This document shows, piece by piece, positions 3,160 through 22,362 of a stretch of 28,970 nucleotides of DNA. Location of the stretch: positions 1 through 28,970 of the IMG/VR virus record IMGVR_UViG_3300006919_010533. One strand, given 5' to 3'. Within the stretch, counting starts at the first letter, position 1, and each line of letters opens with the position of its first letter. Both the position numbers and the translations under genes were made by a program. The stretch is from a virus. The notes below the pieces were generated by a model that was not told where the DNA came from, did not search any database, and was given only the letters and a program-made list of their open reading frames with translations.

Positions 3160-4296
3160 TTAAAAGTCAATCTTATAAACTTCTTCAGATGGTTTGCCAA
3201 ACTTAACCCGTTCACCATATCCATCAAGATCGTCTCTAATCTGTGTCATAATAGTTTCAATATCGTCAATATAAACAGTATAACCAGCATAAAGAAGGTC
3301 TAAACAAAGTCTATACTGCTGACTCTCTGTGAGAATATCAGTTCCTTTTTTATAAGAAACATAATCAAAGTAAAAAGGAAGTTTATTTACATTTTTAGAA
3401 ATAAAATAATCACATAAGAATTTTGCATGTTCATTATTAAAGTTATCAGTGGTGTTTCCTAGATCAAATTTGAGACCAAGTTTTTTTGCAAATGCTCCAA
3501 AAGAACGATTATCTCTAGGAAGACATGGGCCACCAAAACCATATCCATACTTCAAATATTTACGACCAACTCTCGTATCATCACCAATTGCTTCAAGAAC
3601 AGTTGATATTTCATTCTCCAAACCATAGAGAGTCATCACTTGTCCAACCATGTTTGCATAACTAATTTTTGTTGTTAGAAAACAATTAACTGCAAGTTTG
3701 ACAAGTTCTGCAGAAGTAGTTGACATAAAGTGAATCTTTGGTTCAGTTTCCTGAATCTTGTGATAAAGTTCACAAAGATCTGCATATACTAAACTATTAT
3801 CACCACCAATGAGAACCATATCTGCACGTCTCAAATCACGTACAATGGATCCTTGAGCAATAAATTCTGGATTGTAAAATACTTCTACACCGCATTCTTT
3901 CAACTCTTCTTGAATCTCTGCACAATCTCCAGGATTTGTTGTACACCCAACAACAAAAGATTTACCAGCAGATTTAGAAGATTTTTTAATATCTTCCACT
4001 ACCTCCCATACAGCTTCAACGTTATAACTTCCATCCGAACGTGAAGGTGTTGCAACAAGAGTGTAAATTATATCACACTCATCAATTACTTTCTGATTAC
4101 TTATCGTAGCAGTAAAGTTTGTTGCCTCAAGTAGCATCTTCTGTACTTCAGGTTCATTGGTATTAATAAATTTGTTTTGAAGACCATTTACATAGTCTTC
4201 TCTGCAATCAGAAACAATAACTTCATATCCAGCTTGTTCGCAAAGAAGAGCAAAGCAAATACCTAATCTACCAGCTCCGATAACTCCAATTTTCAT
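3160..4296 (-). CDS. UDP-glucose/GDP-mannose dehydrogenase family protein
   Basis: 378 aa. This family oxidises C6 of a nucleotide sugar twice using NAD+ to make a uronic acid. The Rossmann motif GAGRLG is at 7-12, NPEFIAQGS at about 142-150 (family NPEFLREG), Lys200 and Asn204 in the central helix, and the catalytic Cys258 in GYGFGGPCLPRD. All catalytic landmarks are present, though the protein is somewhat shorter than typical Ugd (about 390-450 aa), and part of the C-terminal domain looks reduced. It starts by ATGA overlap with nadE, which codes for the enzyme that makes its NAD+ cofactor. Confidence 0.9.
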   Translation of the reverse strand: MKIGVIGAGRLGICFALLCEQAGYEVIVSDCREDYVNGLQNKFINTNEPEVQKMLLEATNFTATISNQKVIDECDIIYTLVATPSRSDGSYNVEAVWEVVEDIKKSSKSAGKSFVVGCTTNPGDCAEIQEELKECGVEVFYNPEFIAQGSIVRDLRRADMVLIGGDNSLVYADLCELYHKIQETEPKIHFMSTTSAELVKLAVNCFLTTKISYANMVGQVMTLYGLENEISTVLEAIGDDTRVGRKYLKYGYGFGGPCLPRDNRSFGAFAKKLGLKFDLGNTTDNFNNEHAKFLCDYFISKNVNKLPFYFDYVSYKKGTDILTESQQYRLCLDLLYAGYTVYIDDIETIMTQIRDDLDGYGERVKFGKPSEEVYKIDF

Positions 4297-5114
4297 AGTT
4301 TAAACGTAGGAATTGATGACATTTTATGTTGATTCTGGGTGTTAAACTTTTGATATTGCTTAACTGCATGTTTCTGTTCATCAGATAAAGGATTACCTTT
4401 CCACATATCAAGTGAAGATGGATCTTTCCAATCCATTATTCCACTTTCCATTACCCATTCGAGAAGTTCATAGGAAACACCAAGTTGTTGCTCATCCGTT
4501 CTACTATCTCCCCAAAGCCCATCGGTTGGAGGAGCATCAATAATACGTTGATCTACACCAAGATATTTTCCAAGTTCCCATACTTCTGTTTTATAAAGAT
4601 CTGCAATTGGTGCAATATCAACACCACCGTCACCATATTTAGTATAAAACCCAACACCATAATCCTCAACCTTATTACCAGTTCCAACAACAATACCATT
4701 TTTAGAACCAGCAACTTGATATAAAGTTACCATACGAAGTCGTGATTTTGTATTCGCATTTGCAAGTTCATTTTTAGTAAACTCATCACCAGTCCACCAT
4801 CCAAATGATTGCAAGAATTTATCATAAACTCCAGAAAGTTCAACTCGAACTTTAGTCACATTATCATATTTCTTTTCCAACTCATTAACATAATCTCTTG
4901 AAAGAGAATCACTATCATGAGAAGAATACAATGGCATTGAAAGAACATAAGTTGGAAACCCAGTTTCAGCACAAAGAGTAGCTGTAACAGCAGAATCGAT
5001 TCCACCAGATACCCCTACAACAAATGCTTTGATACTAGGATTATCTGAAACATATTGATTTAACCATTTAACAATATTTTCTTTGAGATGTTGATAGTCT
5101 GTAATTCTATTCAT
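4293..5114 (-). CDS. nadE: NAD+ synthetase, ammonia-dependent type
   Basis: NadE converts nicotinate adenine dinucleotide to NAD+ using ATP and ammonia. The ATP-pyrophosphatase P-loop VSGGIDSAV (35-43) is perfect, followed by NTKSRLRM (about 121-128) and GTGNKVED (144-151), then DIAPIADLYKTEVW. At 273 aa it is the single-domain form without a glutaminase domain. The frame extends to a TTG at 5135, but the ATG at 5114 forms an ATGA overlap with the GT11 gene and is preferred. Its place inside a sugar cluster next to NAD-dependent dehydrogenases and epimerases is unusual. It may boost cofactor supply or act on a related adenylated substrate. Confidence 0.92.
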   Translation of the reverse strand: MNRITDYQHLKENIVKWLNQYVSDNPSIKAFVVGVSGGIDSAVTATLCAETGFPTYVLSMPLYSSHDSDSLSRDYVNELEKKYDNVTKVRVELSGVYDKFLQSFGWWTGDEFTKNELANANTKSRLRMVTLYQVAGSKNGIVVGTGNKVEDYGVGFYTKYGDGGVDIAPIADLYKTEVWELGKYLGVDQRIIDAPPTDGLWGDSRTDEQQLGVSYELLEWVMESGIMDWKDPSSLDMWKGNPLSDEQKHAVKQYQKFNTQNQHKMSSIPTFKL

Positions 5115-5959
5115 AGCACAATCCAATCGGAACAATAAAGGTCTTTGATGTTTTTATCTGCATAAGCAGGACCAAACCACATCTTTGGTGCAATCACTTT
5201 TTTGTTAGGGTTTGCAATCAACCATGCTCCCCACCAACTCATACTACTGTTAGCAATTATAGCATGTGAACACAATGACATCAAGCACAAGTCAGCATAT
5301 GGTGTATAAGAACCATCAGAATATTTCTGTTGAGGTTCAGAAATTAAAAATCTATCTCCAGAGAAAAATTCTTGTTCTTTGACCCATTCAGGAGAATCTG
5401 AAAATACAATTACTGGTTGATCATCATCAAACTCTGCAAGGGCTCGCTCATAATATTCAAGTGGTTGAACAGGGTGTTGATCACCACATTGAGTATAACT
5501 CCATTTGAATCCACGAGGGTCAGTGAGATTTGGATCTCCACGTCGAACATGAAGCATAATAGGTTCACCTTCAACTGTAGACATCATCTCCTTACACGGA
5601 AGAAGATGTTCATCATGAAATGTGTAGTCCTCTCTTATTTGATCTGAAATGTGTTGAAAGTATTTTTCAGATTGAAAGAACCCATGGAGACTTGTATTGT
5701 CTGGACATTTGTCAAAGAGTTCTTGAGAGAAATGAAAGTGTGGTTCCTGAACGTATTTAACATCCTCACCAATTCCCTCATGTCTATTTGATGAGAGTTT
5801 AAAGCAATCATGAAGACTATAATTTTCTATCCCTTTCATATGTGATGGAGGAATACAAAATTGATAACCATGTTTAGCTGCTATTCCACGAAGAGCAGCA
5901 TATTCGAACATTTGATTTCCAAGTCTCCCCAGACTTCCTATGTGATTAAAAAATAACAT
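5111..5959 (-). CDS. glycosyltransferase family 11 (alpha-1,2-fucosyltransferase-like)
   Basis: 282 aa. GT11 enzymes usually transfer L-fucose or a similar 6-deoxyhexose from GDP onto a glycan. The three family motifs are seen: GRLGNQMFEYAA (11-22), HVRRGD (137-142, donor phosphate binding) and SSMSWWGAWL (238-247). It starts 4 nt after the methyltransferase gene and ends by ATGA overlap with nadE. It is the first of four GT11-like genes here and resembles the one at 8173-8982 most closely. The real donor may be a sugar made by this cluster rather than fucose. Confidence 0.9.
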   Translation of the reverse strand: MLFFNHIGSLGRLGNQMFEYAALRGIAAKHGYQFCIPPSHMKGIENYSLHDCFKLSSNRHEGIGEDVKYVQEPHFHFSQELFDKCPDNTSLHGFFQSEKYFQHISDQIREDYTFHDEHLLPCKEMMSTVEGEPIMLHVRRGDPNLTDPRGFKWSYTQCGDQHPVQPLEYYERALAEFDDDQPVIVFSDSPEWVKEQEFFSGDRFLISEPQQKYSDGSYTPYADLCLMSLCSHAIIANSSMSWWGAWLIANPNKKVIAPKMWFGPAYADKNIKDLYCSDWIVL

Positions 5960-8180: not shown

Positions 8181-8982
8181 CAAGATACTCCCATTCCTTC
8201 TGGTAAATATCCGTAGGATCCTCCCCATCAGGTCCAAACCACAGTTTAGGACCAATCACCCTATTATGTCCTGCCAACCATGCTCCCCACCATGAGAAGG
8301 TAGAGTTGGCAATGATGTTGTAATTACACATAGACATCAAACACATATCATGTATGTTATCACTTTCAGAGATAAAGAATCTATCTGAAGAGAAAAACTC
8401 ATGTCCAAAAGCCCATTGAGGGTCATCAGTAAAGACAAAAACTGGAATGTCTTCGGGAAGTTTAGACAGTGCTTCTTCATAGTAACTGATAGGAAGCACA
8501 GGATGATATGTTGGTTTGATCAAATGATCTGTGCGACGAACGTGCAGAGAAATTGCTTCTGTATGTCCCTCATCAATGACAATTTCTTTCCAAATTTCAT
8601 CACAGAGTTTCTTTACATCATCACGAAACTCAAAGTCTTTACGAAGTTCTTCTTCTACATGAAAGAAATATCTTTCAGACTGAAAGTAACCATATAGATT
8701 TACATTATCAGGACAAGTTTTTACAAGTTCTTTATCATACCTAAAAGATGATTCCTGTTTATATTGTCCATTTAAAAGACCAACATTATTAAGTGATGGC
8801 AATTTAAAAGCCATGAAGAGTTTATGTTGATTTTCTTCATCATTAAACTCATCATCATTCCTCGGTCCATTCGGAATACAAAAGTCATATCCTCTTGCTT
8901 TTGCAATTCCTTTAGTTGCTGCATATTGGAACATTTGATTTCCAAATCGGCCATTCTTTCCTAGATGGTTATGTCCTATCAT
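8173..8982 (-). CDS. glycosyltransferase family 11 (second copy)
   Basis: 269 aa. Motifs NGRFGNQMFQYAA (10-22), HVRRTD (mid-protein) and STFSWWGAWLAG (C-terminal third) define GT11. Overall layout and phrases such as FQSERYF, FFSSDRFFISE and KLWFGP parallel the GT11 protein coded at 5111-5959. The two are probably paralogues within the cluster with different linkages. It starts by ATGA overlap with the DUF5672 gene. The donor could be a GDP-6-deoxyhexose. Confidence 0.9.
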   Translation of the reverse strand: MIGHNHLGKNGRFGNQMFQYAATKGIAKARGYDFCIPNGPRNDDEFNDEENQHKLFMAFKLPSLNNVGLLNGQYKQESSFRYDKELVKTCPDNVNLYGYFQSERYFFHVEEELRKDFEFRDDVKKLCDEIWKEIVIDEGHTEAISLHVRRTDHLIKPTYHPVLPISYYEEALSKLPEDIPVFVFTDDPQWAFGHEFFSSDRFFISESDNIHDMCLMSMCNYNIIANSTFSWWGAWLAGHNRVIGPKLWFGPDGEDPTDIYQKEWEYLDV

Positions 8983-9668
8983 CTTTCTAATTTAACTCCT
9001 GGTGGTAGTCTATAATGAAATCCAAATGGTGTCACCCCCTCACATTCCGGAACTCTTGTTTCCTGTGAAAATCTTACAGCAACATCAACAGGTGCATACT
9101 TACACCCCTGCTCTATAAAAATATGCCTATTATGAACACAAACATTTCCATCCTCATGATAATTCACAACTCCTTCTGGCATCCAATAAAAGTCACTATT
9201 GTTAGTTTCCCAAGGAACTTCAACTTTAGTCGGAACCTCAAGAAACTTTTTACTCCTTAAAGAAAATCCACCATTACCAACACGATGGTGATTACCAAAA
9301 GGATCAATGTATGCATCCTCAACTACTGCCCATGGAGCTCCAATATAATCATAATTCAACCATTGTGGATCCCATTTATCTGGGAACAAAACAAAACCAT
9401 CTTGCTGAACAAGTAAGCAGTGTGATGTGTCTATATGATTATGAAGATGGTACACGACATAATGATTATAATCATTATAGTTTTTAATATCAGTTACTGG
9501 TCGTTCTATGGTGATATTTGAATCTAAATTTGGAGGATCCTTATCTGTTACTAATTTCACGGACCCATATTTTATACCATTCATGCTGGTATAAACCGCA
9601 GTTAGAGTTTCATTTATTCGGTCTGTAGTATCAATACTGACCAATGTAACATCAGATAGATCAATCAT
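8979..9668 (-). CDS. DUF5672-type putative glycosyltransferase
   Basis: 229 aa. The core HCLLVQQDGFVL, YDYIGAPW and VGNGGFSLRSKKFL is the hallmark of DUF5672 proteins, which sit in polysaccharide clusters and have a predicted GT-A fold. A direct activity is not established for most members. It starts by ATGA overlap with the divergent GT11-like gene and ends the same way, so it is part of the tightly coupled string. The assignment rests on motif memory, not on a database search. Confidence 0.8.
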   Translation of the reverse strand: MIDLSDVTLVSIDTTDRINETLTAVYTSMNGIKYGSVKLVTDKDPPNLDSNITIERPVTDIKNYNDYNHYVVYHLHNHIDTSHCLLVQQDGFVLFPDKWDPQWLNYDYIGAPWAVVEDAYIDPFGNHHRVGNGGFSLRSKKFLEVPTKVEVPWETNNSDFYWMPEGVVNYHEDGNVCVHNRHIFIEQGCKYAPVDVAVRFSQETRVPECEGVTPFGFHYRLPPGVKLER

Positions 9669-10600
9669 ACTTCATCTCTATAGATATTTGTTCTTTGCTT
9701 ATACTCTTCCCATTCTAACCTACATTCATCAGGTGTAAAGAGTTTACCTACTCTGTCCATATAATAAGTTGGGTAACTATATATGCTACATCCAAGAGAC
9801 CACCATCCTTGAGATCTATTGTGATCAAACCAATACTTTGGAGCAATGCAATTTTGTATGTTTTTATTCAACCACAATGGCCAGCAAGCAAATGTTGATG
9901 CTCCACAAATAATATTTTTTGCATTTTTAAGTGCAACAAAATCCCAAGCAACACTATCATGATAAGCAGGAAACTCTGGTAAAACTATATTTGCAGTTTT
10001 AACATCTTCAGTAACAATACAAAATCTCATGTTCGGATTAAACTTCAACATATTTTGTATTGCATTGTCATAATATGATCTTGGAAACCAACAACCAGCA
10101 TTCCCAATCATATCACTACCACGAAAATTGATGACACAAATATCATCACCACAAGTTTCATTGTGTTCAAATTCTGGTTTTACTTTTAACCAACTACGAA
10201 CCAAATCCATTTCATCATAAAAATAATCTTCCGATTGAAAAGATCCATCAATCTTTGTATTATCTTTTATTTCAAAAAGTTTTTTATCAGTGAGTCTAAT
10301 ATCTGTTTTTAGCATAGGGTCAGTATATAACCCGTGCCTATGTTCTACATAATAGTTCTCTATCCCATCAGGAAGTTTATCTGGTGGGCCGCCAGGAGGA
10401 CTGGAACCACCATAAACTGGTTTACCAAGATCAAGATCCATAAAATGAATTCCATTATCATTGAATCTTCTATCGCCAAAATTTTCCAGTCCAGTGAACC
10501 CATAATCAAATCCCCTCTTACGGGCGAGCATTCTAGTAGCTACGTAAACAAATAACTGGTTACCAAAACCTTGACCATAATAAAATTCAGAAACAATCAT
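9665..10600 (-). CDS. divergent GT11-like glycosyltransferase
   Basis: 311 aa. The N-terminus EFYYGQGFGNQLFVYVATRML retains the GT11 G-x-GNQ-F signature. NFRGSDM in the middle stands where HxRRgD is found, and STFACWPLWL replaces the usual SSFSWWGAWL. The key Arg of the donor motif is present. It has about 30 more residues than the other GT11 genes, including a Gly/Pro-rich loop near residue 65. It is probably a fucosyl- or other 6-deoxyhexosyltransferase. Coupled by ATGA to its neighbours. Confidence 0.75.
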   Translation of the reverse strand: MIVSEFYYGQGFGNQLFVYVATRMLARKRGFDYGFTGLENFGDRRFNDNGIHFMDLDLGKPVYGGSSPPGGPPDKLPDGIENYYVEHRHGLYTDPMLKTDIRLTDKKLFEIKDNTKIDGSFQSEDYFYDEMDLVRSWLKVKPEFEHNETCGDDICVINFRGSDMIGNAGCWFPRSYYDNAIQNMLKFNPNMRFCIVTEDVKTANIVLPEFPAYHDSVAWDFVALKNAKNIICGASTFACWPLWLNKNIQNCIAPKYWFDHNRSQGWWSLGCSIYSYPTYYMDRVGKLFTPDECRLEWEEYKQRTNIYRDEV

Positions 10601-11886
10601 TTGAATTCAGAAACAACTTTTGCAATGTAATCAATCATATCTTGTGTAATTGTAGGAGAGCATCCCAAGAAAAATACTTTATCAAGAACTTGATTTGCTT
10701 CTGGATATTTTCTAGCATCATCTAAATGACTATATCCAGGATGCAATAAGATATTACCAGCAAAATAATTGCGAGTTTGAATTTTATTTTTTTCAAAATG
10801 CGAAACTAAAGATCTTTTCAGATTTTTATCATCACAAACAATAGGAACTCCAAACCAACTTGTTTCAGATTCTTCTCGCTCATTTACAACTCCAGTACCA
10901 GGAATACTCTCAATAATCTTTTGTATTTTTTTCTTATTACTTCTACGAATCTTATGTATCTCTTCAAACTTGAGAAGTTGAATTGAACCAACTGCACCTT
11001 GCATATCTAAAGGTTTAAGATTATATCCCATATTACCAAACACATATTTGTGATCAACAATATCAGGATAATCCTGCAACCAAGTGTCAAATCTCCTCCC
11101 ACAAACACCATTCGAAAGAAGATTTTGCTGTCCAACACAATAACATCCTCGTCCCCACCATGCAAAACTTCTAGCAAGATCTACTATAGCCTTCTCATTT
11201 GAAGAAACCATTCCACCTTCAATTGTGCAAATGTGATGTGCTGGATAAAATGAGCAAGATGCTGCAATAGCATGTTTTGTCAAATAGTCACCCTTCCAAG
11301 TGCTACCAAGACTATCACAATTGTCTGCGATTAAATGTACATCATTTGTTTTGCATATATCAACCAGTTTATCCATATCGTATGCATTACCAAGAACAGG
11401 TGAAGATATAACTGCTCTTGTATTTGGTGTGATTTTATCTGCAACCTGATCAAGATTCCAATTCAAATCCTCCCAAACAATATCAACAAATACTGGTTTC
11501 AATCCACATTGTGCAATAGGAGCTACAGTAGTCGCAAATCCACATGCACAGACAATAATTTCGTCACCATCTTTCCATCCAAAATATTTTTTAAGAGCAG
11601 CAAACATTACAAGATTTGCAGAACTCCCAGAATTTACCATTACAGAATGTTTAAATCCAAACTTTTGTGAAAATTCATGCTCAAATTTATTAACCTTTTC
11701 TCCAGATGATAACCACTTACCTTTCATAACAGAGTAAATAAGTTCTCTGGCTTCAAGGTCATCCCAATAAGGACCAGAATAAAAAACAGGTTTACCTTCT
11801 TTCCAATTCTTATTTGCCATAAATGGAAAGATATCATCATCCATCTCTTTGGCAGAGTCAATAAAATTTTCAATCAACTGATACAT
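10597..11886 (-). CDS. rfbH: RfbH-type 4-keto-6-deoxyhexose 3-dehydrase (PLP/[2Fe-2S])
   Basis: 429 aa in the DegT/DnrJ aminotransferase fold. E1 enzymes of this fold remove the 3-OH of a CDP-4-keto-6-deoxyhexose on the way to 3,6-dideoxyhexoses. The usual PLP-lysine motif SFYPxK is SFYPAHH (212-218), with His at the Lys position, the hallmark of dehydrases rather than transaminases. Iron-sulfur ligands fit E1: Cys190-x57-Cys248-x-Cys250, then Cys262 after 11 residues (7 in the enterobacterial enzyme as I recall). The start at ATG 11886 with GGAG 9 nt upstream is preferred over the TTG at 11904. The partner reductase and CDP-glucose enzymes are not in this window. Confidence 0.88.
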   Translation of the reverse strand: MYQLIENFIDSAKEMDDDIFPFMANKNWKEGKPVFYSGPYWDDLEARELIYSVMKGKWLSSGEKVNKFEHEFSQKFGFKHSVMVNSGSSANLVMFAALKKYFGWKDGDEIIVCACGFATTVAPIAQCGLKPVFVDIVWEDLNWNLDQVADKITPNTRAVISSPVLGNAYDMDKLVDICKTNDVHLIADNCDSLGSTWKGDYLTKHAIAASCSFYPAHHICTIEGGMVSSNEKAIVDLARSFAWWGRGCYCVGQQNLLSNGVCGRRFDTWLQDYPDIVDHKYVFGNMGYNLKPLDMQGAVGSIQLLKFEEIHKIRRSNKKKIQKIIESIPGTGVVNEREESETSWFGVPIVCDDKNLKRSLVSHFEKNKIQTRNYFAGNILLHPGYSHLDDARKYPEANQVLDKVFFLGCSPTITQDMIDYIAKVVSEFK

Positions 11887-11909
11887 ATTCTTTATCTCCA
11901 CCAATACAT

Positions 11910-11951: not shown

Positions 11952-12650
11952 TTAGATTTCCTGAAGGTCTTCAGTCCACATCATATATAACAATCTTTCT
12001 ATCAAATATGACTCACCAGAAGTGCTTTGAAATTCTTCAGGTGGTTCATATGAAACAAAAAACTTTAGTTTTTCATAAAACTCTTTACTAAATTTTAAAA
12101 TATTTGCTTTAGGAACAACATAGTTTCCGCCAGGAGCAAATCTATTAAAAGGAAAATTAGGAGGATTTTGAAATAGTTTACCAAGCATTTGTGGAAAAGT
12201 TGAAAAGTGTCTTGTATAGATTGTTTGATTAGACACTGCTTCCCATGTCGGTTGAATAAATCCTCCACCATTACAAACAAAAGCCGTACTGTCATGAAAT
12301 CTTTCAATAGGAAGAAAATACTCGGCAGTCAAAGCACGATAAAATCTTTCACGAGTTGTATAATACTCTGCCCCACCTTTATCTTCAGGTCTTTGAAACA
12401 TATTTCCTTTTATGAAAATACAAACATCGGGAAGTTTCTCATAATGTTCCACAATATATCTCATTATATCATAGATGTTTTCACCAACATTGGGAGAACG
12501 AATACTTTCACCAAGATGACTCCAATCCTTTTCAACATCACTTCTATCATAAATGATGGTATTTTCTGGTGAAAACCCATAATCATAAGTAGTGCTTAGC
12601 CACTCAAGATCAGAATTATGATTTGATACTACTAATGTTTTTGTTGTCAT
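11952..12650 (-). CDS. DUF3431-like protein, probable glycan-modifying enzyme
   Basis: 232 aa. Landmarks are DVCIFIKGNMFQRP (about residues 75-88), a Gly-rich CNGGGFIQP, and FAPGGNYVVPKANIL near residue 165, followed by ESYLIERLLYMMW. These resemble DUF3431, a family with a predicted glycosyltransferase-like fold and no firm biochemical role. No signal peptide or membrane helix. ATGA overlap with the exostosin-like gene upstream, and GAGGAT serves as ribosome site. It is the last gene before the internal promoter at 11910-11938. Confidence 0.7.
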   Translation of the reverse strand: MTTKTLVVSNHNSDLEWLSTTYDYGFSPENTIIYDRSDVEKDWSHLGESIRSPNVGENIYDIMRYIVEHYEKLPDVCIFIKGNMFQRPEDKGGAEYYTTRERFYRALTAEYFLPIERFHDSTAFVCNGGGFIQPTWEAVSNQTIYTRHFSTFPQMLGKLFQNPPNFPFNRFAPGGNYVVPKANILKFSKEFYEKLKFFVSYEPPEEFQSTSGESYLIERLLYMMWTEDLQEI

Positions 12651-13576
12651 TTTACATCCTCAATATATTTTTGAAAAAAATTATTTAAATCTAAATTATA
12701 TAATTCCATTTTCTGTGCCTGTAAGAACAGGTCGTTATTTTGTACCAAAAGTTCTTTTGTTATTTCACTATACTCATCAACAAAAAGAACTGGATAATCT
12801 TTAAACAGTTCCTCTAGATAAGAGTGCCTTTTCATAATAGGAACCCTTCTCATATACAGAACTTCCCAGTTGCGGTGACAGTCAATAGCATTACCACGAG
12901 GACAAAGAACAAATTTGCACGATTTAATCCCCTCAAGAAAAGTTGAATAACCAACTCGATTTTGTTCAACAAAGGTCCAGGATTCATTTTGAAACTTTTC
13001 TTTCAATCCAGATCTTTCTGAATGATTATTTTCATTATGATTAATATAAAGAAGTTTGTATGAGTTTGGATTACTTTTTTCCATCTCCTCCTGAAGAAGT
13101 TCAATTCTATTATCACTCATAGACATTCTTCTTTGAACTCCATAAGGAGCAGGAATTACCTTTTCACCAAAAGATACTGCATTGACTGCAACAATTCTAA
13201 TCACATTGTCAGGAATAGAACCAAATATAAATTCATCAGTAGGTGTGTCTTCCAGATTAGTAAAAATGACAAATCTCATATCAGGAAAATTGCCACATAA
13301 TTTAAGAAGATCACTCCTTCTATGAAGAGATTCAATATATGGCCGGTCTTCAGGTTTGACTTCAACAATATCTCTTTTATACAGTCGTATATTGTCAATA
13401 AACAAAGTCATATAATTACGACTCTTCTTTATTTCAAATAACTTTGACACAAACTCCACATTCATAAGATTTGCATCTTTCATAAAAGAGGTATAAATGT
13501 TCCCCCATTGTCCTGACTGATCACCAAAAGAATAATCACACAGTTCAGATAATGCTACACCTTCAATTAGTTCCAT
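12647..13576 (-). CDS. exostosin-like (GT47-type) glycosyltransferase
   Basis: 309 aa. The C-terminal half carries FVLCPRGNAIDCHRNWEVLYMRRVPIM, a close form of the exostosin-domain sugar-nucleotide site (P-RG---D--R-WE----G-IPI). The N-terminal half has no motif I recognise. Unlike eukaryotic exostosins it has no membrane anchor. It overlaps the GT17 gene upstream by 10 nt. Activity would be transfer of a hexose or uronic acid to the growing glycan; the donor is unknown. Confidence 0.8.
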   Translation of the reverse strand: MELIEGVALSELCDYSFGDQSGQWGNIYTSFMKDANLMNVEFVSKLFEIKKSRNYMTLFIDNIRLYKRDIVEVKPEDRPYIESLHRRSDLLKLCGNFPDMRFVIFTNLEDTPTDEFIFGSIPDNVIRIVAVNAVSFGEKVIPAPYGVQRRMSMSDNRIELLQEEMEKSNPNSYKLLYINHNENNHSERSGLKEKFQNESWTFVEQNRVGYSTFLEGIKSCKFVLCPRGNAIDCHRNWEVLYMRRVPIMKRHSYLEELFKDYPVLFVDEYSEITKELLVQNNDLFLQAQKMELYNLDLNNFFQKYIEDVK

Positions 13577-17660: not shown

Positions 17661-18511
17661 CACATATAGTCCTTTTTCATTTCGTTGAATACTTTTCGAA
17701 TACCCACATCAATAGTGGTTTTAGGAACCCACCAATCAAGAATAAATGTATCTGCGGTGTTCCTTTTATCCATCTGAACATTGTCTTTAGCAAGTCCAGA
17801 CTTAATTTTTACATCATGCATTCCTTCAATTGAGAAGCAACCTTGAATGATATTAGCAACTTCTCTAATAGTATTGGAATGAAATGAGGTAATGTGAAGA
17901 GGATCTTCTGGTTTGAAATCAGTAAAGTTTTCCATTACGGTTTCAAGAGCTTCACAACAATCCTCTGCATACAAAAACTGACGTTCTTCAGTACCATCAG
18001 TCATCATCTCAAATTCTTTTTCTTCAAATCCTTTCCGAATGAAGTCTGTGATGACATGAGCTTTGTCTAGATCTTTTTCTATACCATAAACATTCCAGAA
18101 CTTAACAGTCAGTCCTTTGAGTGCGGTAGTATAGAGTTCTCCAAGTTTCTTACAAGCACCATAAGGAGAGTAACTCATATTACTCATTTGAGATGATGCA
18201 AACACAAACCTTTTATTGTGCTTTTTGAGTAAATCAAAAGTTTGAGCCATTATACGGGTATTGTTATTGATAAAATCAAAAGTATGTTGATACTTTTTCA
18301 GATATCTCGACCCACCAACATCAAATGCAAGGAAGAATACAAAGTCAGCATTCTTGATTGCACGATCTAGATTATGATTTGGAATCTGGGTAAGGTCTTC
18401 ACCATGATGACGGGCAACATCAAACTCCGTAACTTCATGATTTTTATCACGAAGATACTCTGTGAGATATGCACCGATTTGGCCTGAAGATCCTAAAATA
18501 GTTACTTTCAT
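17660..18511 (-). CDS. NAD-dependent epimerase/dehydratase (SDR)
   Basis: 283 aa. Extended SDR with GSSGQIG (7-13), FASSQMS (105-111) and the catalytic pair Tyr117 and Lys121 (YGACK). VKFWNVYGIE follows. DVGGSRYL near residue 65 replaces the common HLAA-AHV motif, so substrate recognition is probably unusual. The C-terminal part with EERQFLYAEDCCEAL is typical of sugar-binding SDRs. It lies between the GDP-mannose 3,5-epimerase-like gene (ATGA overlap) and a transferase gene. It may reduce or epimerise the product of its neighbour. Confidence 0.82.
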   Translation of the reverse strand: MKVTILGSSGQIGAYLTEYLRDKNHEVTEFDVARHHGEDLTQIPNHNLDRAIKNADFVFFLAFDVGGSRYLKKYQHTFDFINNNTRIMAQTFDLLKKHNKRFVFASSQMSNMSYSPYGACKKLGELYTTALKGLTVKFWNVYGIEKDLDKAHVITDFIRKGFEEKEFEMMTDGTEERQFLYAEDCCEALETVMENFTDFKPEDPLHITSFHSNTIREVANIIQGCFSIEGMHDVKIKSGLAKDNVQMDKRNTADTFILDWWVPKTTIDVGIRKVFNEMKKDYM

Positions 18512-19554
18512 TTTTTATCAATCTGCTCCAAAATCCAATTGTAAGTTTTGGCAATGCCCTCTTCAAGAGTTTGAGAATAGTCCCAATCAAGTTCCCTACG
18601 AATGACATCGTTGTTAGAGTTGCGTCCACGAACACCAAGAGGAGCATCCAGTTTGTGTACCTTTCTTACTTCTTTATTAGCAACCCTAGCAGCAGTTTCT
18701 ACAAGTTGATTGATAGTAACCATCTCTTCGGAACCAATATTCACAGGACCCATGAAGTCACTGTCCATCAGTCTTCGAGTTGCTTCAATGCATTCGTCAA
18801 CGAACAAGAAGGAACGAGTTTGTAGGCCATCTCCCCACACTTCGATTGCTCCACCTTCCTCTGGGAGGTAAGCGACTTTACGGCAGATTGCAGCTGGTGC
18901 TTTTTCTCTTCCACCTTCCCAGGTTCCTTCGGGCCCAAAAATATTGTGATAGCGAGCAACTCTAACAGGGATCCCGTAATTGCGATTATAAGCAAAGTAT
19001 AAACGTTCCGAGAAAAGTTTTTCCCATCCATATTCAGAGTCGGGGTTAGCGGGATATGCAGATTCTTCACGACAATCGGGATTATCAGGGTCTAATTGAT
19101 TGTGCTCTGGATACATACATGCTGATCCAGAATAAAATATTTTAGTTCTATTTCCTACTGTCTCATTGAACTTACGTTGTTCATCAAGAACATTGAGATT
19201 AATTGTAACAGAATTATGCATGATGTCTGCATCGTTCTCACCAGTGAAAACAAAACCTGCACCACCCATATCAGCAGCGAACTGATAGATCTCATCAAAT
19301 GGTAGTACAAACTTTTCAGCAATCTGCTGATAAAAGTTTCCAAGATATCCAGAGAAACGAATACATCGACGAACAAAATCTACATCACGAAGATCGCCTT
19401 GAATAAATTCATTTGCTTCAGTTTCAGAAAACTCTGGTCGTTTAAGATCTACACCTCTTACCCAGTATCCTTCTGAACGAAGACGCTTTACCATATGACT
19501 TCCAATAAAGCCACCAGCACCAAGCACCAGTGCTGTTTTCTTATATTCACTCAT
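18508..19554 (-). CDS. GDP-mannose 3,5-epimerase-like SDR
   Basis: 348 aa. GDP-mannose 3,5-epimerase converts GDP-D-mannose to GDP-L-galactose. Close family traits: LVLGAGGFIGSH (9-20), QFAADMGGAGFVFTGEND (91-108) where the MGG loop is diagnostic, SGSACMYPE (142-150) with the Cys used as acid/base, and Tyr175/Lys179 (YGWEK). WEGGREKAPAA follows. A ribosome site AGGAG sits in the 32-nt gap upstream. GDP-L-galactose would be a donor that GT11-type enzymes could plausibly use. The activity of the phage enzyme is inferred. Confidence 0.85.
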   Translation of the reverse strand: MSEYKKTALVLGAGGFIGSHMVKRLRSEGYWVRGVDLKRPEFSETEANEFIQGDLRDVDFVRRCIRFSGYLGNFYQQIAEKFVLPFDEIYQFAADMGGAGFVFTGENDADIMHNSVTINLNVLDEQRKFNETVGNRTKIFYSGSACMYPEHNQLDPDNPDCREESAYPANPDSEYGWEKLFSERLYFAYNRNYGIPVRVARYHNIFGPEGTWEGGREKAPAAICRKVAYLPEEGGAIEVWGDGLQTRSFLFVDECIEATRRLMDSDFMGPVNIGSEEMVTINQLVETAARVANKEVRKVHKLDAPLGVRGRNSNNDVIRRELDWDYSQTLEEGIAKTYNWILEQIDKK

Positions 19555-19586: not shown

Positions 19587-20408
19587 TCAAGAACAGAGAT
19601 TTTTCAATCCTTGCTCAAGAGAAATACTGGGAACAAACCCCAAAGTTTTTAATTTATTAGTATTGATGTAAAAATTTGATGGTAACACTGCCTTGTTAAA
19701 ATCTGGAGTTTCAACAGAAACAAATTGACTTTTACTATTCAATAGTTCTCTTGCCTTTTCCATAATGTTTCTAAAAGGCATTGATTCTCCACTAGCTACA
19801 TTGTAAATAGAGTTCATCTCTCCCTTGTCCATAACAAGTTTTATACCCCTACACACATCATCAGCGTGAGTATAATCCCGAATATGACTGCCACCATCAT
19901 GAAGAGTAATTGTCTTATCCTCTTTCATCAAATTAATAAGAAACCCAAGAACATTTTTCTTTGGTGATACTGTCTTATCATCCCCATACAAATTAGCAAG
20001 ACGAATGATTCGATACTTGACATTAAATGTTTGACAGAATGAAATAATCAATTGCTCTGCAGCTCTCTTTGTAATCGAATAAAATCCTCTGGGATCACAA
20101 GGATCAGTTTCTAATGCATCATTTATATTCAAACCATAAACAAAACCAGTGCTCACATAATTAAATACAATATTTTCGTTTTTACATTTTTCTAATGTTT
20201 CCAGCAAGATTTTAAGATTAGTATCAACATCAATCTGAAGATTATCAAAGACATTGTGATTTGTTGTTGTACTGATCAAATACAATATGTTATTTGATTG
20301 AGGTTCTCTCTCATTCCTAGGTATTTGTGTAATTTGGTCAGGAAAAAGACGACAAAAAGTTCCACCAATAAAACCGGTGGAACCATAAACGGAAATCTTA
20401 TCACTCAT
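19587..20408 (-). CDS. NAD-dependent sugar reductase/epimerase (SDR, possible RmlD role)
   Basis: 273 aa from ATG 20408, which overlaps the rmlC end by 8 nt. The frame can be extended to 20432 with a less likely start. Features: YGSTGFIGG (8-16), STGFVYG, catalytic Tyr110 and Lys114 (YSITK), RLANLYGD and HIRDYTHADD. Coming straight after rmlB and rmlC, it could supply the 4-keto reduction step done by RmlD in dTDP-rhamnose synthesis. The sequence looks more like a general epimerase than canonical RmlD, so it may instead yield another dTDP-6-deoxysugar. Confidence 0.8.
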   Translation of the reverse strand: MSDKISVYGSTGFIGGTFCRLFPDQITQIPRNEREPQSNNILYLISTTTNHNVFDNLQIDVDTNLKILLETLEKCKNENIVFNYVSTGFVYGLNINDALETDPCDPRGFYSITKRAAEQLIISFCQTFNVKYRIIRLANLYGDDKTVSPKKNVLGFLINLMKEDKTITLHDGGSHIRDYTHADDVCRGIKLVMDKGEMNSIYNVASGESMPFRNIMEKARELLNSKSQFVSVETPDFNKAVLPSNFYINTNKLKTLGFVPSISLEQGLKNLCS

Positions 20409-20949
20409 ATTCGTACTTATCACACTCTTCAAAAGTTTTTCCTTGCGAATCTTTTAGAGAAAGAACTGGATTTCCTTCAAATCCCCAATCAATATTCAGT
20501 TCCGAATCATTCCATAAAAGAGTTCTATCATGTTCTGGGTAATAATAATCAGTAGTTTTATATACTATCTCTGCCAAATCACTGACTACATAAAAACCAT
20601 GAGCAAATCCAGGCGGAACCCACAATTGTAATTCAGGCCTATCAAGTGTAATTCCAAACCATTTTCCAAATGTTTCTGATGTTTTACGAAGATCTACAAT
20701 TACATCATACACAACACCAGAAATGCATCTTACCAACTTTGCTTGAGGATGTTCAATCTGATAATGCAGTCCTCTCAATACACCTTTACTAGATTTGGAA
20801 TGATTATCTTGAACAAAAAATTCTGTTCTACTTACATTTTCTCTAAATTCTTTGGAATTAAAAGACTCCATAAAAAATCCTCTATCATCCTCATATTTTT
20901 TTGAGGTGATTACAAATGCATCTTTTAGATTAGTTTCTGTGATTTTCAT
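20401..20949 (-). CDS. rmlC: dTDP-4-dehydrorhamnose 3,5-epimerase
   Basis: 182 aa, the normal RmlC length, when started at ATG 20949; the frame stays open to 21072 inside rmlB. A cupin enzyme that epimerises C3 and C5 of dTDP-4-keto-6-deoxyglucose. Motifs: DDRGFFMESFN, QDNHSKSSKGVLRGLHYQ with the catalytic His, GVVYDVIVDLRK, and WVPPGFAHGFYV. The DYYYPEHDR and GIKWND-like end (LNIDWG) also fit. It overlaps rmlB by 20 nt. Substrate comes directly from RmlB. Confidence 0.95.
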   Translation of the reverse strand: MKITETNLKDAFVITSKKYEDDRGFFMESFNSKEFRENVSRTEFFVQDNHSKSSKGVLRGLHYQIEHPQAKLVRCISGVVYDVIVDLRKTSETFGKWFGITLDRPELQLWVPPGFAHGFYVVSDLAEIVYKTTDYYYPEHDRTLLWNDSELNIDWGFEGNPVLSLKDSQGKTFEECDKYEYE

Positions 20950-21856
20950 ACCATTCAATTGTTTGTTGAAGTCCATAGTCAAGGGAATATAATGGTTCCC
21001 ATCCAATGTGGTTTTGGATCTTTTTAATGTCAGTGGAATAACGTCGGTCATGACCAGGCCTATCCTTGACATATTCTATCATACTTTCGTCTCTACCCAT
21101 ATACTTTAGTATTTTCTTTACAAGATCAATATTTCTAATCTCACACTCTCCACCAATATTATATTTTTCACCAACTTCACCATACTTCCATACTTGAGTG
21201 AGTGCTGCACAATGATCCTTTACATACAACCAATCACGAACTTGCAATCCATTACCATAAACTGGAATTTTTTTATTGTCAAGAATATTACAAATTGTTT
21301 GTGGAATTAATTTCTCTTTATATTGTCTTGGGCCATAATTATTTGAACAGTTTGTAATAATTGCAGGGAGATCATAAGTATTATGATATGCCATCACAAA
21401 ATGATCACTTGCTGCTTTTGATGCAGAGTATGGATTTTTAGGAGAGTAATTAGATTGTTCTGTAAATGAACCTTCTTCTATTGAACCATAAACCTCATCA
21501 GTAGAGACATGAATAAATTTTTCTACATCGTACTTCAAAGATGCATTCAATAGATTTACAGTTCCAGTGATATTTGTCTTGATGAATTCTGAACAATCTT
21601 CAATAGAATTATCTACATGACTTTCGGCTGCAAAATGAAAAATTGTTTTGACATCATGTTTAGTGAAGACATTATCATACCATCCATCTTCTGCAATGTC
21701 ACATGGATACAAAGATATATTTTTAGGGAGATTGTTAGTATTTGCAGCATATGTAAGTTTATCAATGCAAATAATTTCATCATCAGTATTTTCAATTATA
21801 TGATGAAGAAAATTACTTCCAATAAATCCTGCACCACCTGTAACTAAAATTGTCAT
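20930..21856 (-). CDS. rmlB: dTDP-glucose 4,6-dehydratase
   Basis: 308 aa. It makes dTDP-4-keto-6-deoxyglucose, the branch point to rhamnose and other 6-deoxysugars. NAD motif GGAGFIGS (7-14), FAAESHVDNSI, STDEVYG (118-124) with the catalytic Asp-Glu pair, YSASK (Tyr143, Lys147) and NCSNNYGPRQ are all textbook. It is slightly shorter than bacterial RmlB (about 350 aa). No rmlA (thymidylyltransferase) is seen in this window, so dTDP-glucose may come from the host or from elsewhere in the phage. ATGA overlap with the cytidylyltransferase gene. Confidence 0.96.
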   Translation of the reverse strand: MTILVTGGAGFIGSNFLHHIIENTDDEIICIDKLTYAANTNNLPKNISLYPCDIAEDGWYDNVFTKHDVKTIFHFAAESHVDNSIEDCSEFIKTNITGTVNLLNASLKYDVEKFIHVSTDEVYGSIEEGSFTEQSNYSPKNPYSASKAASDHFVMAYHNTYDLPAIITNCSNNYGPRQYKEKLIPQTICNILDNKKIPVYGNGLQVRDWLYVKDHCAALTQVWKYGEVGEKYNIGGECEIRNIDLVKKILKYMGRDESMIEYVKDRPGHDRRYSTDIKKIQNHIGWEPLYSLDYGLQQTIEWYENHRN

Positions 21857-22362
21857 TTTTGATTATATTTTTCCAAAAGTTTAGGAGAGTATTGTTCCAA
21901 CTCATCAATATTTGTCTCTGCTCCTTGTACAGTTTGTTCTCTTTTTTTCTTTTCAAGAAAATAAACTCGATTACGAAGTTCAGAAGAAGCATACTTGTGC
22001 CTCCTCAAATGATAATGAATTTCTATGCCATTGTCAATACAATATTGCTTCCCAGTGAAATCCCTATCCTTATATTCTTCACTAAGGAATCTAACATCTA
22101 TATTTTGTGTTTGAATGAGATTCAATAAGTCTTCTTCCGTTTCATACACAAGAATTTCATCGACATATTTACAACTCTGCAATTGAACATACCGTTCATA
22201 TACAGATTGTATGGGTTTATTTTTAATCCCAGGCCTATCTACTGTAGGATCAACCTGAAGTGCAACGATTAAGTAATCACATATTCGCTTTTCCATCTTT
22301 AACATTGTCACATGACCAGCATGAAACAAATCAAATGAACTACAATTAAATCCTATTTTCAT
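21853..22362 (-). CDS. cytidylyltransferase family protein (TagD-like)
   Basis: 169 aa. A nucleotidyltransferase with the HxGH catalytic motif (HAGH, 14-17) after GFNCSSFDLF. YASSELRNRV stands where the RTxGISTT motif is in glycerol-3-phosphate cytidylyltransferase; the Ser is kept but the leading RT is not. It may activate glycerol-3-phosphate or a related phosphate as a CDP derivative. The C-terminal 30 residues are polar and extend beyond the usual ~130-aa domain. It is the first gene of the sugar cluster, 28 nt after the terminator at 22391-22417. TATAATATATTATAAATC just upstream (22372-22389) could hold a promoter, but no -35 is evident. Confidence 0.85.
   Translation of the reverse strand: MKIGFNCSSFDLFHAGHVTMLKMEKRICDYLIVALQVDPTVDRPGIKNKPIQSVYERYVQLQSCKYVDEILVYETEEDLLNLIQTQNIDVRFLSEEYKDRDFTGKQYCIDNGIEIHYHLRRHKYASSELRNRVYFLEKKKREQTVQGAETNIDELEQYSPKLLEKYNQK

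Follow-up and report, generated by a model that had tools for sequence, protein, structure and literature searches.

The virus record IMGVR_UViG_3300006919_010533 of IMG/VR was analysed over positions 1 to 28,970; this whole stretch of 28,970 bases is called the window below. It has the look of a marine cyanophage, with psbA, a PetF ferredoxin gene, a large sugar cluster, five tRNAs and a transaldolase gene, the last named from sequence reading alone. The subject here is a minus-strand gene of the sugar cluster (10597-11886), whose product we annotate from sequence, predicted model and tree as an RfbH/E1-like iron-sulfur (Fe-S) 3-dehydratase of the pyridoxamine 5′-phosphate (PMP) type, predicted to act on a nucleoside diphosphate (NDP)-4-keto-6-deoxyhexose and belonging to a long-loop clade. 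The gene starts with the ATG at 11886 and encodes 429 residues. An in-frame TTG provides an alternative start, with which the open frame spans 10597-11904 on the same strand. On the plus strand, translation of 10597-11886 meets many stops. An earlier sequence-only reading had taken the product for an RfbH-type E1. The protein is indeed an E1-type 3-dehydratase with intact ligands; its place in a clade sister to RfbH had been missed.

The protein carries the motif SFYPAHH at residues 212-218 and the cysteines C190, C248, C250 and C262. H217 aligns with the mutated pyridoxal 5′-phosphate (PLP) residue of PDB entries 3bcx and 3bb8 (E1 and the E1 H220K mutant), which places the previously claimed Lys-to-His change at the PLP site. 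The cysteine spacing given earlier, with its gap of 11 before the fourth ligand, is exact (C190-x57-C248-x-C250-x11-C262). Relatives are encoded in 202 IMG/VR stretches, and a viral comparison set was formed by the window and 85 further loci, many of them close kin, its IMG/VR part being the best-scoring 80 of the 202. H217 and the four cysteines are invariant in all 86 sequences, so that no close relative has lost a ligand, and the matched stretch is free of in-frame stops in every one of them. Binding of a [2Fe-2S] cluster is predicted from the four cysteine positions. Additional cysteines (C113, C115, C211, C220 and C409) are mostly kept in phages and are not clade-wide.

A sequence search of solved structures matched E1 with E = 1.2e-65. 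The bit scores were 225 for E1 (3bcx), 177 for ColD (2gms), 150 for a putative 3-dehydratase (9wvy) and at most 102 for transaminases. The NCBIfam RfbH equivalog model NF011936 gave 359.3 bits, under its cut-off of 423, and the protein is therefore filed in a sister clade and not as RfbH proper. A chance match was dismissed because of the E value to E1, the 359 bits of the RfbH model and the ligands invariant in 86/86. The predicted structure has a mean predicted local distance difference test (pLDDT) score of 92.8 and a predicted template modelling (TM) score of 0.90. Its best structural match is E1 (TM 0.85; Z 47.8, root-mean-square deviation (rmsd) 2.5, 401 residues aligned), and the next family listed is perosamine synthase (Z 45.8). 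The protein thus has the E1-type 3-dehydratase fold with its ligands conserved.

Phylogeny placed the protein beside E1/RfbH and apart from ColD and the transaminases. The tree held 80 rows: 13 transaminases, 38 ColD-like proteins, 5 classic RfbH including E1, and 24 members of the long-loop clade, with the window among them. Five of the 53 bacterial-contig matches were left out as overlong or truncated frames (L111, L114, L117, L123, L131); unused PF01041 loci were L149, L155, L164 and L165, repeats of RfbH copies in the tree, together with L150, L153 and L157. Supports were 100/100 for the long-loop clade, for classic RfbH and for the transaminases, and 99/97 for the ColD-like proteins. The long-loop clade and classic RfbH joined as an Fe-S clade at 100/99. 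The gap before the fourth ligand is x11 in 24/24 long-loop rows and x7 in the five classic RfbH/E1 rows, hence four residues longer; because it is common to all rows of one clade, the long gap is no defect. The PLP-site residue is His in all 67 dehydratase rows and Lys in 13/13 transaminase rows. C248, C250 and C262 are present in 29/29 Fe-S-clade rows and never all together in the 38 ColD-like rows; C190, which is Cys in ColD-like rows too, is not diagnostic. A transaminase identity is ruled out by the position outside the 13-row Lys clade and by His in 86/86, and a ColD identity by the tree position and the Fe-S cysteines.

The phage enzyme shares with E1/DdhC/AscC, the RfbH of Yersinia pseudotuberculosis (3bcx, 3bb8), a common fold, the Lys-to-His change, the four Fe-S cysteines and one supported clade. 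It differs in having x11 rather than x7, in forming a separate 100/100 clade outside the classic one and in scoring below the RfbH cut-off. With ColD, a guanosine diphosphate (GDP)-4-keto-6-deoxymannose 3-dehydratase (2gms), it shares the fold and the His, and the ColD-like clade is called sister to it, but ColD-like proteins lack the C248/C250/C262 set. ColD requires no external reductant, according to PMC8987622.

The genes found with the RfbH-like gene define a module, of which the sequence-only reading overlooked the ketoreductase-like and glycosyltransferase-like partners. The first is SDR19, a short-chain dehydrogenase predicted to be a 4-ketoreductase (19587-20408, minus strand), which in the window lies about 7.7 kb from the RfbH-like gene. 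An SDR19 homologue (at least 38% identity) occurs at 80 of the 86 viral loci. In 51 of these it is directly upstream of RfbH, and in 47 of the 51 the two genes overlap by 13 bases. Of the six loci without it, four offer no more than about 3 kb of upstream sequence, and in phage S-B43 the gene lies at another place in the genome; no SDR19 homologue was found in a 642-kb huge phage. Where 7.5 kb or more of upstream sequence was available (67 viral loci), best hits gave SDR19 at 65. At the same 67 loci, TagD-like genes were counted 39 times, RmlB (at least 48%) 38, RmlC 30, Fcl-like 15 and Gmd-like 7, with none for rfbF or rfbG. Nine of 13 bacterial long-clade loci also have an SDR19 homologue, seven directly upstream. 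In a collection of 50,697 phage records, an SDR19 near 50% and an RfbH of at least 60% occur in the same six records and in no others; the SDR19 match that follows in rank is at 31%. GME18 (18508-19554) was rejected as a specific partner, being present in cyanophages without RfbH.

In 85/85 sequences SDR19 keeps the Ser, the Tyr-x3-Lys and the nucleotide-binding glycines and has no Asp-Glu pair of the kind found in 4,6-dehydratases. The window RmlB has the pair missing from SDR19. Such residues fit a ketoreductase (or epimerase) better than a 4,6-dehydratase. Among curated models SDR19 scores highest with RmlB, at 104 bits (cut-off 365), and the nearest solved structures are epimerases and dehydratases. 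SDR19 diverges far faster than RfbH (median pairwise identity 0.49 vs 0.75), as if the reductase step had been swapped or diversified.

The second partner is DUF5672 (8979-9668, minus strand), a predicted GT-A-fold glycosyltransferase and, from its fold model and linkage, a candidate transferase of the deoxy sugar. Where viral loci had room, DUF5672 lay directly downstream of RfbH in 55 of 78 and a GT11-like gene in 19 of 78. DUF5672 is very rare, occurring in 8 of the 50,697 phage records: five RfbH Synechococcus phages, another contig of AG-345-D19, the huge phage and AG-345-E08. At least seven of these eight records belong to RfbH carriers. Its model (pLDDT 82.8) matches the GT-A protein LgtC (Z 11.3, rmsd 3.6, 205 of 229 residues aligned), with Foldseek TM values of 0.35-0.51 among the 50 matches listed; this supports a GT-A fold, which does not address the donor sugar. 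In the window the last four bases of the RfbH-like gene (ATGA) overlap the next gene, a glycosyltransferase-like gene (phrog_2644; 9665-10600, minus strand) that lies between RfbH and DUF5672 and is an alternative candidate transferase. In two bacterial carriers a DUF4422 gene follows RfbH (L091, 7759-8493; L092, 11319-12068) and is a possible stand-in for DUF5672.

The remaining sugar genes of the module form a minus-strand run headed by a TagD/RfaE-II-like nucleotidyltransferase gene (21853-22362). It is followed by an RmlB-type deoxythymidine diphosphate (dTDP)-glucose 4,6-dehydratase (20930-21856; STDEVYG, YSASK), the probable source of the 4-keto-6-deoxy substrate, by an RmlC-type 3,5-epimerase (20401-20949, its start set at an internal ATG where the model begins) and by SDR19. 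Both RmlB and RmlC score over their curated cut-offs. RmlB-like (dTDP) enzymes are the commonest linked 4,6-dehydratases. The cytidine diphosphate (CDP) label of the sequence-only reading found no such backing. All rfbG-model matches in seven phage records, including three complete related phages, were under cut-off; rfbF gave no matches in the three complete phages and none by tblastn of one rfbF in the 86 loci. The 13 long-clade bacterial loci have no rfbG-like frame beside RfbH, and their rfbF-like matches reach at most 24% identity. Both rfbF and rfbG occur over cut-off in some carrier bacteria (G002, G006, G007), and the Nostocales genome HT-58-2 has rfbF and no over-cut-off rfbG. In a Nitrosomonadaceae bin, placement of rfbF and rfbG beside RfbH was rejected, as they sit on different contigs. 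We infer that dTDP is favoured over CDP, because the window RmlB is over cut-off, whereas the phages searched yielded no rfbF and no rfbG above its cut-off. GDP is also conceivable, since a Gmd-like gene occurs at 7/67 loci.

E1 requires the reductase E3, according to PMC8987622. The same source reports that SpnQ, an E1 homologue, works with ferredoxin/ferredoxin-NADP reductase (FNR) or flavodoxin pairs instead of E3. SpnQ is the Fe-S 3-dehydratase of spinosyn biosynthesis, in a dTDP pathway, and dTDP is likely for the phage too. Its substrate is a 2,6-dideoxy sugar, and its presumed kinship to the phage enzyme is one of Fe-S/His type. A search was made with PF00175, which we take to be the NAD domain expected in an E3 reductase; we likewise take the E3 domain order to be Fer2 before FAD and NAD. 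Seven phage records, among them three complete long-clade phages, yielded no E3-type reductase, and in none of 50 viral contigs (all fragments; of 80 fetched) did PF00175 exceed its cut-off; a single sub-threshold match of 15.4 bits had an internal stop. As a positive control, the domain was detected in 10 of 14 genomes. The earlier statement that the window lacks an Fe-S reductase partner thus extends to the complete relatives and viral contigs searched.

Six cyanobacterial carriers were covered, with the Prochlorococcus-family carrier G453 left out. HT-58-2, a complete chromosome record with two copies of the enzyme, has a single PF00175 protein, PetH (783 bits, cut-off 600). Three Prochlorococcus carriers have one each, without Fer2, whose best model is cyanobacterial PetH at 536-550 bits (cut-off 600); a fourth (G003, 900 kb, incomplete) has none. 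That cyanobacterial carriers have only PetH was rejected as a general rule, which fails for G003 and for the cyanobacterial bin G010 with its three extra proteins. In the classic-RfbH genome G004, Fer2 precedes FAD and NAD in one or more proteins, and those named in G004, G006 and G007 have best models from other pathways, below cut-off. The carriers' Fer2-FAD-NAD proteins are E3-like by architecture only. The PF00175 proteins examined were 4/4 in G010, 3/3 in G005, 4/5 in G012, 2/4 in G004, 1/4 in G006 and the single one in each of G001, G002, G007, G008, G009 and G011. Two reductases of G010 (L185, L187) join an FHA domain to the FAD, NAD and Fer2 domains.

The plant-type [2Fe-2S] ferredoxin PetF noted earlier at 1500-1793 is real and lies on the minus strand (TIGR02008, 163 bits, cut-off 81); it is a possible, not obligate, electron donor. 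Phage records matching the window ferredoxin number 283 and those matching the psbA piece 512, and a review counts petF in 44 of 153 genomes (PMC10452541). Ferredoxin is present in 4/4 RfbH Synechococcus phages tested, which are close kin by look. Its co-occurrence was dropped as proof of a donor role, and the phage ferredoxin counts for little as evidence, petF being widespread among cyanophages. The earlier proposal that this ferredoxin or a host protein could supply electrons remains plausible as regards the host, given SpnQ and a PetH-type FNR as the sole PF00175 protein in 4/6 cyanobacterial carriers; the weak part is the phage ferredoxin itself. The data suggest ferredoxin as a donor in cyanobacteria and in the phages that infect them. 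Immediately behind the ferredoxin gene, sequence reading alone points to a small thioredoxin-like CGPC protein (1207-1500).

The viral RfbH genes have a median dN/dS of 0.054 (range 0.013-0.120), computed from 140 of 3,655 pairs with 0.05 < dS < 0.8 and at least 20 differences; many of the sequences are close kin, so the pairs are not independent. The gene is under strong purifying selection and is clearly maintained.

We read these data as a cyanophage module for an NDP-3,6-dideoxyhexose with an RfbH/E1 sister-clade PMP/[2Fe-2S] 3-dehydratase at its core, and give this reading a probability of roughly 0.64. Computation provides its fold, clade, ligand conservation, module linkage and purifying selection; unlike E1/RfbH, the enzyme is linked to SDR19 and DUF5672, with no E3, rfbF or rfbG detected in the three complete relatives. 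An RmlB-type 4,6-dehydratase of phage or host would make the 4-keto-6-deoxy sugar nucleotide. The RfbH-like enzyme would bind it as a Schiff base to PMP, with H217 driving departure of the hydroxyl at C3; the intermediate would be reduced by two electrons passing through the enzyme's own cluster. These electrons would most likely come from ferredoxin, of the host or the phage PetF, because no E3 reductase was detected in phages. SDR19 would reduce the 4-keto group, and DUF5672 or the neighbouring glycosyltransferase would move the 3,6-dideoxyhexose onto a glycan, which may be host lipopolysaccharide (LPS) or lie on the virion. The ascarylose pathway consists of a 4,6-dehydratase, E1, an epimerase and a reductase. 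By its resemblance to that pathway, the set RmlB-RfbH-RmlC-SDR19 may point to an L-series dideoxy sugar; this is held loosely because RmlC is not universal. The product that this reading predicts, a 3,6-dideoxyhexose, is concrete and can be tested for. DUF5672 gains a candidate role, and it may be that E1-type enzymes can do without E3 when the cell is photosynthetic.

Several observations weigh against this reading. On the side of the enzyme, they are the score below the RfbH cut-off, the Fe-S loop as the least confident region of the model (pLDDT 60-80) and the long branches that separate the long-loop clade from E1, whose substrate and partner may differ from those of the phage enzyme. As for the module, SDR19 has only 15% and 24% identity to the short-chain dehydrogenases beside two classic rfbH genes, and RmlB and RmlC are linked in only 38/67 and 30/67 viral loci. 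The mirror-tree comparison with RfbH over the viral loci is not discriminating and fails to single out SDR19 (r = 0.59, with 0.65 for DUF5672, 0.63 for GTx7, 0.61 for SDR17 and 0.78 for RmlC). The five Synechococcus phages seem closely related to one another, which leaves few independent cases of co-occurrence in phage records. As for the donor, phage ferredoxin is not general: it occurs in 15 of the 50 contigs and is absent from a 107-kb and a 68-kb contig, all of them fragments. G010 has PetH and three FAD-NAD proteins with a carboxyl-terminal Fer2, and the non-photosynthetic long-clade bins G005, G006, G007, G011 and G012 each have at least one Fer2-FAD-NAD protein; the clade may have a dedicated reductase.

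Such proteins, together with that of G004, are what would favour a host E3-like or other flavin/Fe-S reductase, and not plain ferredoxin, as the supplier of the enzyme. G010 belongs here too, with Fer2 at the opposite end. However, none was found in HT-58-2, the three Prochlorococcus genomes or the phages searched. Fer2-FAD-NAD proteins are common in heterotrophs and serve many oxygenase systems, and the named ones resemble other pathways; we regard this source as unlikely, if a serious contender. The undetected E3 could also be read in another way, with the enzyme as a moonlighting transaminase that makes a 4-amino-4,6-dideoxy sugar and seldom uses its cluster. SpnQ transaminates without a reductase given sufficient PLP and glutamate, but E1 and ColD showed no transamination under similar conditions, according to PMC8987622. 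His replaces Lys in 86/86 viral sequences, and unused cysteines would hardly stay invariant. Ferredoxin and FNR are moreover abundant in cyanobacteria, and a moonlighting role appears quite improbable. If the pathway were CDP-based, like that of Yersinia and Salmonella, host RfbF and RfbG would make CDP-4-keto-6-deoxyglucose for the phage enzyme. Its nearest characterised relative, E1, does use CDP, and G002, G006 and G007 have both genes over cut-off; yet they are missing at cut-off from the complete phages, by best hit from the 67 loci and, as rfbG, from HT-58-2 and from beside RfbH in the 13 bacterial loci, where rfbF-like matches are distant (at most 24% identity). We doubt this route.

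The step after the dehydratase leaves room for a different product, such as a 3-deoxy-4-keto or epimerised sugar, if SDR19 is an epimerase or second dehydratase. The RmlB model and the nearest structures lean that way. The Asp-Glu pair is nevertheless absent in 85/85, which tells against a 4,6-dehydratase. In addition, the known pathways to 3,6-dideoxyhexoses require reduction at C4 once E1 has acted; PMC8987622 speaks of "reduction and/or epimerization". We consider a non-reductase SDR19 rather unlikely. According to Sullivan et al. 2010 (PMC3037559), it was not known if the LPS genes of cyanophages have a function or serve as stuffer DNA, and the sugar cluster with its RfbH-like gene could on that account be stuffer or a recent non-functional acquisition. 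The selection result contradicts this, with no dN/dS above 0.120 in the 140 pairs, and so do the uninterrupted frames and invariant ligands of all 86 sequences and the conserved overlap of the SDR19 and RfbH genes; it is scarcely credible. The strong selection, the unvarying catalytic residues and the conserved set of partner genes in turn bear on the question of stuffer or function raised in PMC3037559.

The 3,6-dideoxyhexose module can be taken further into a light-driven deoxygenation, in which photosystem I electrons would pass straight through host or phage ferredoxin and the module would re-tailor the host surface or the virion; this is a tentative idea that we would not expect to hold. 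In the same idea, equally speculative, a constant dehydratase would be combined with a fast-diverging ketoreductase that sets the stereochemistry and with the DUF5672 transferase, like a serotype-switching cassette.

Among Synechococcus phage isolates, the protein is found at 82% identity in S-B43, S-B05, RN05-S (complete), RB11-B (a 210-kb record) and S-H68 (partial). Other phage records are AG-345-D19 at 62% and the 642-kb uncultured phage (LR756502) at 50%. Thirteen long-clade loci lie in bacterial genome contigs, from a contig scan that was keyed on two peptides and thus covers bacteria partially; some bacterial bins could contain phage contigs. A clade member at E 1e-130 or better was found in 4 of 400 genomes of the Prochlorococcus carrier's family and in 2 of 388 of the class of HT-58-2, with at most four scored candidates per genome. 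The clade is mostly viral in distribution and thin in bacteria. The presence of the gene in phage isolates is already known from deposited records, and the association with the two partner genes, SDR19 and DUF5672, is new. The S-H68 orthologue (QBP05885.1, 82% identical) is already labelled CDP-4-dehydro-6-deoxy-D-glucose 3-dehydratase, in record tables that contain no analysis of module, clade, substrate or electron donor; the entries in S-B43, S-B05, RN05-S and RB11-B read "hypothetical" or "DegT". No literature on this enzyme in cyanophages was found, as judged by titles and abstract openings, not full texts.

The huge phage LR756502 (L087) carries both a ColD-like gene (4443-5609) and a long-clade RfbH-like gene (12001-13299), about 6.4 kb apart. 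ColD-like 3-dehydratases also occur in ACG-2014f (L089, 11917-13110) and S-CAM7 (L088, 11953-13086), directly after two nucleotide-sugar epimerase/dehydratase genes. In S-CAM7 this pair is annotated as GDP-mannose 4,6-dehydratase and GDP-L-fucose synthetase, and the ColD-like gene as CDP-4-keto-6-deoxy-D-glucose-3-dehydrase despite its lack of the Fe-S cysteines. These loci suggest that other cyanophages have a second route, GDP-based and colitose-like. Finally, the sugar cluster of the window contains genes for an NAD synthase and, next in transcriptional order, for a nucleotide-sugar dehydrogenase (3160-5135), and homologues of the two form an adjacent pair near RfbH in the 642-kb huge phage also.

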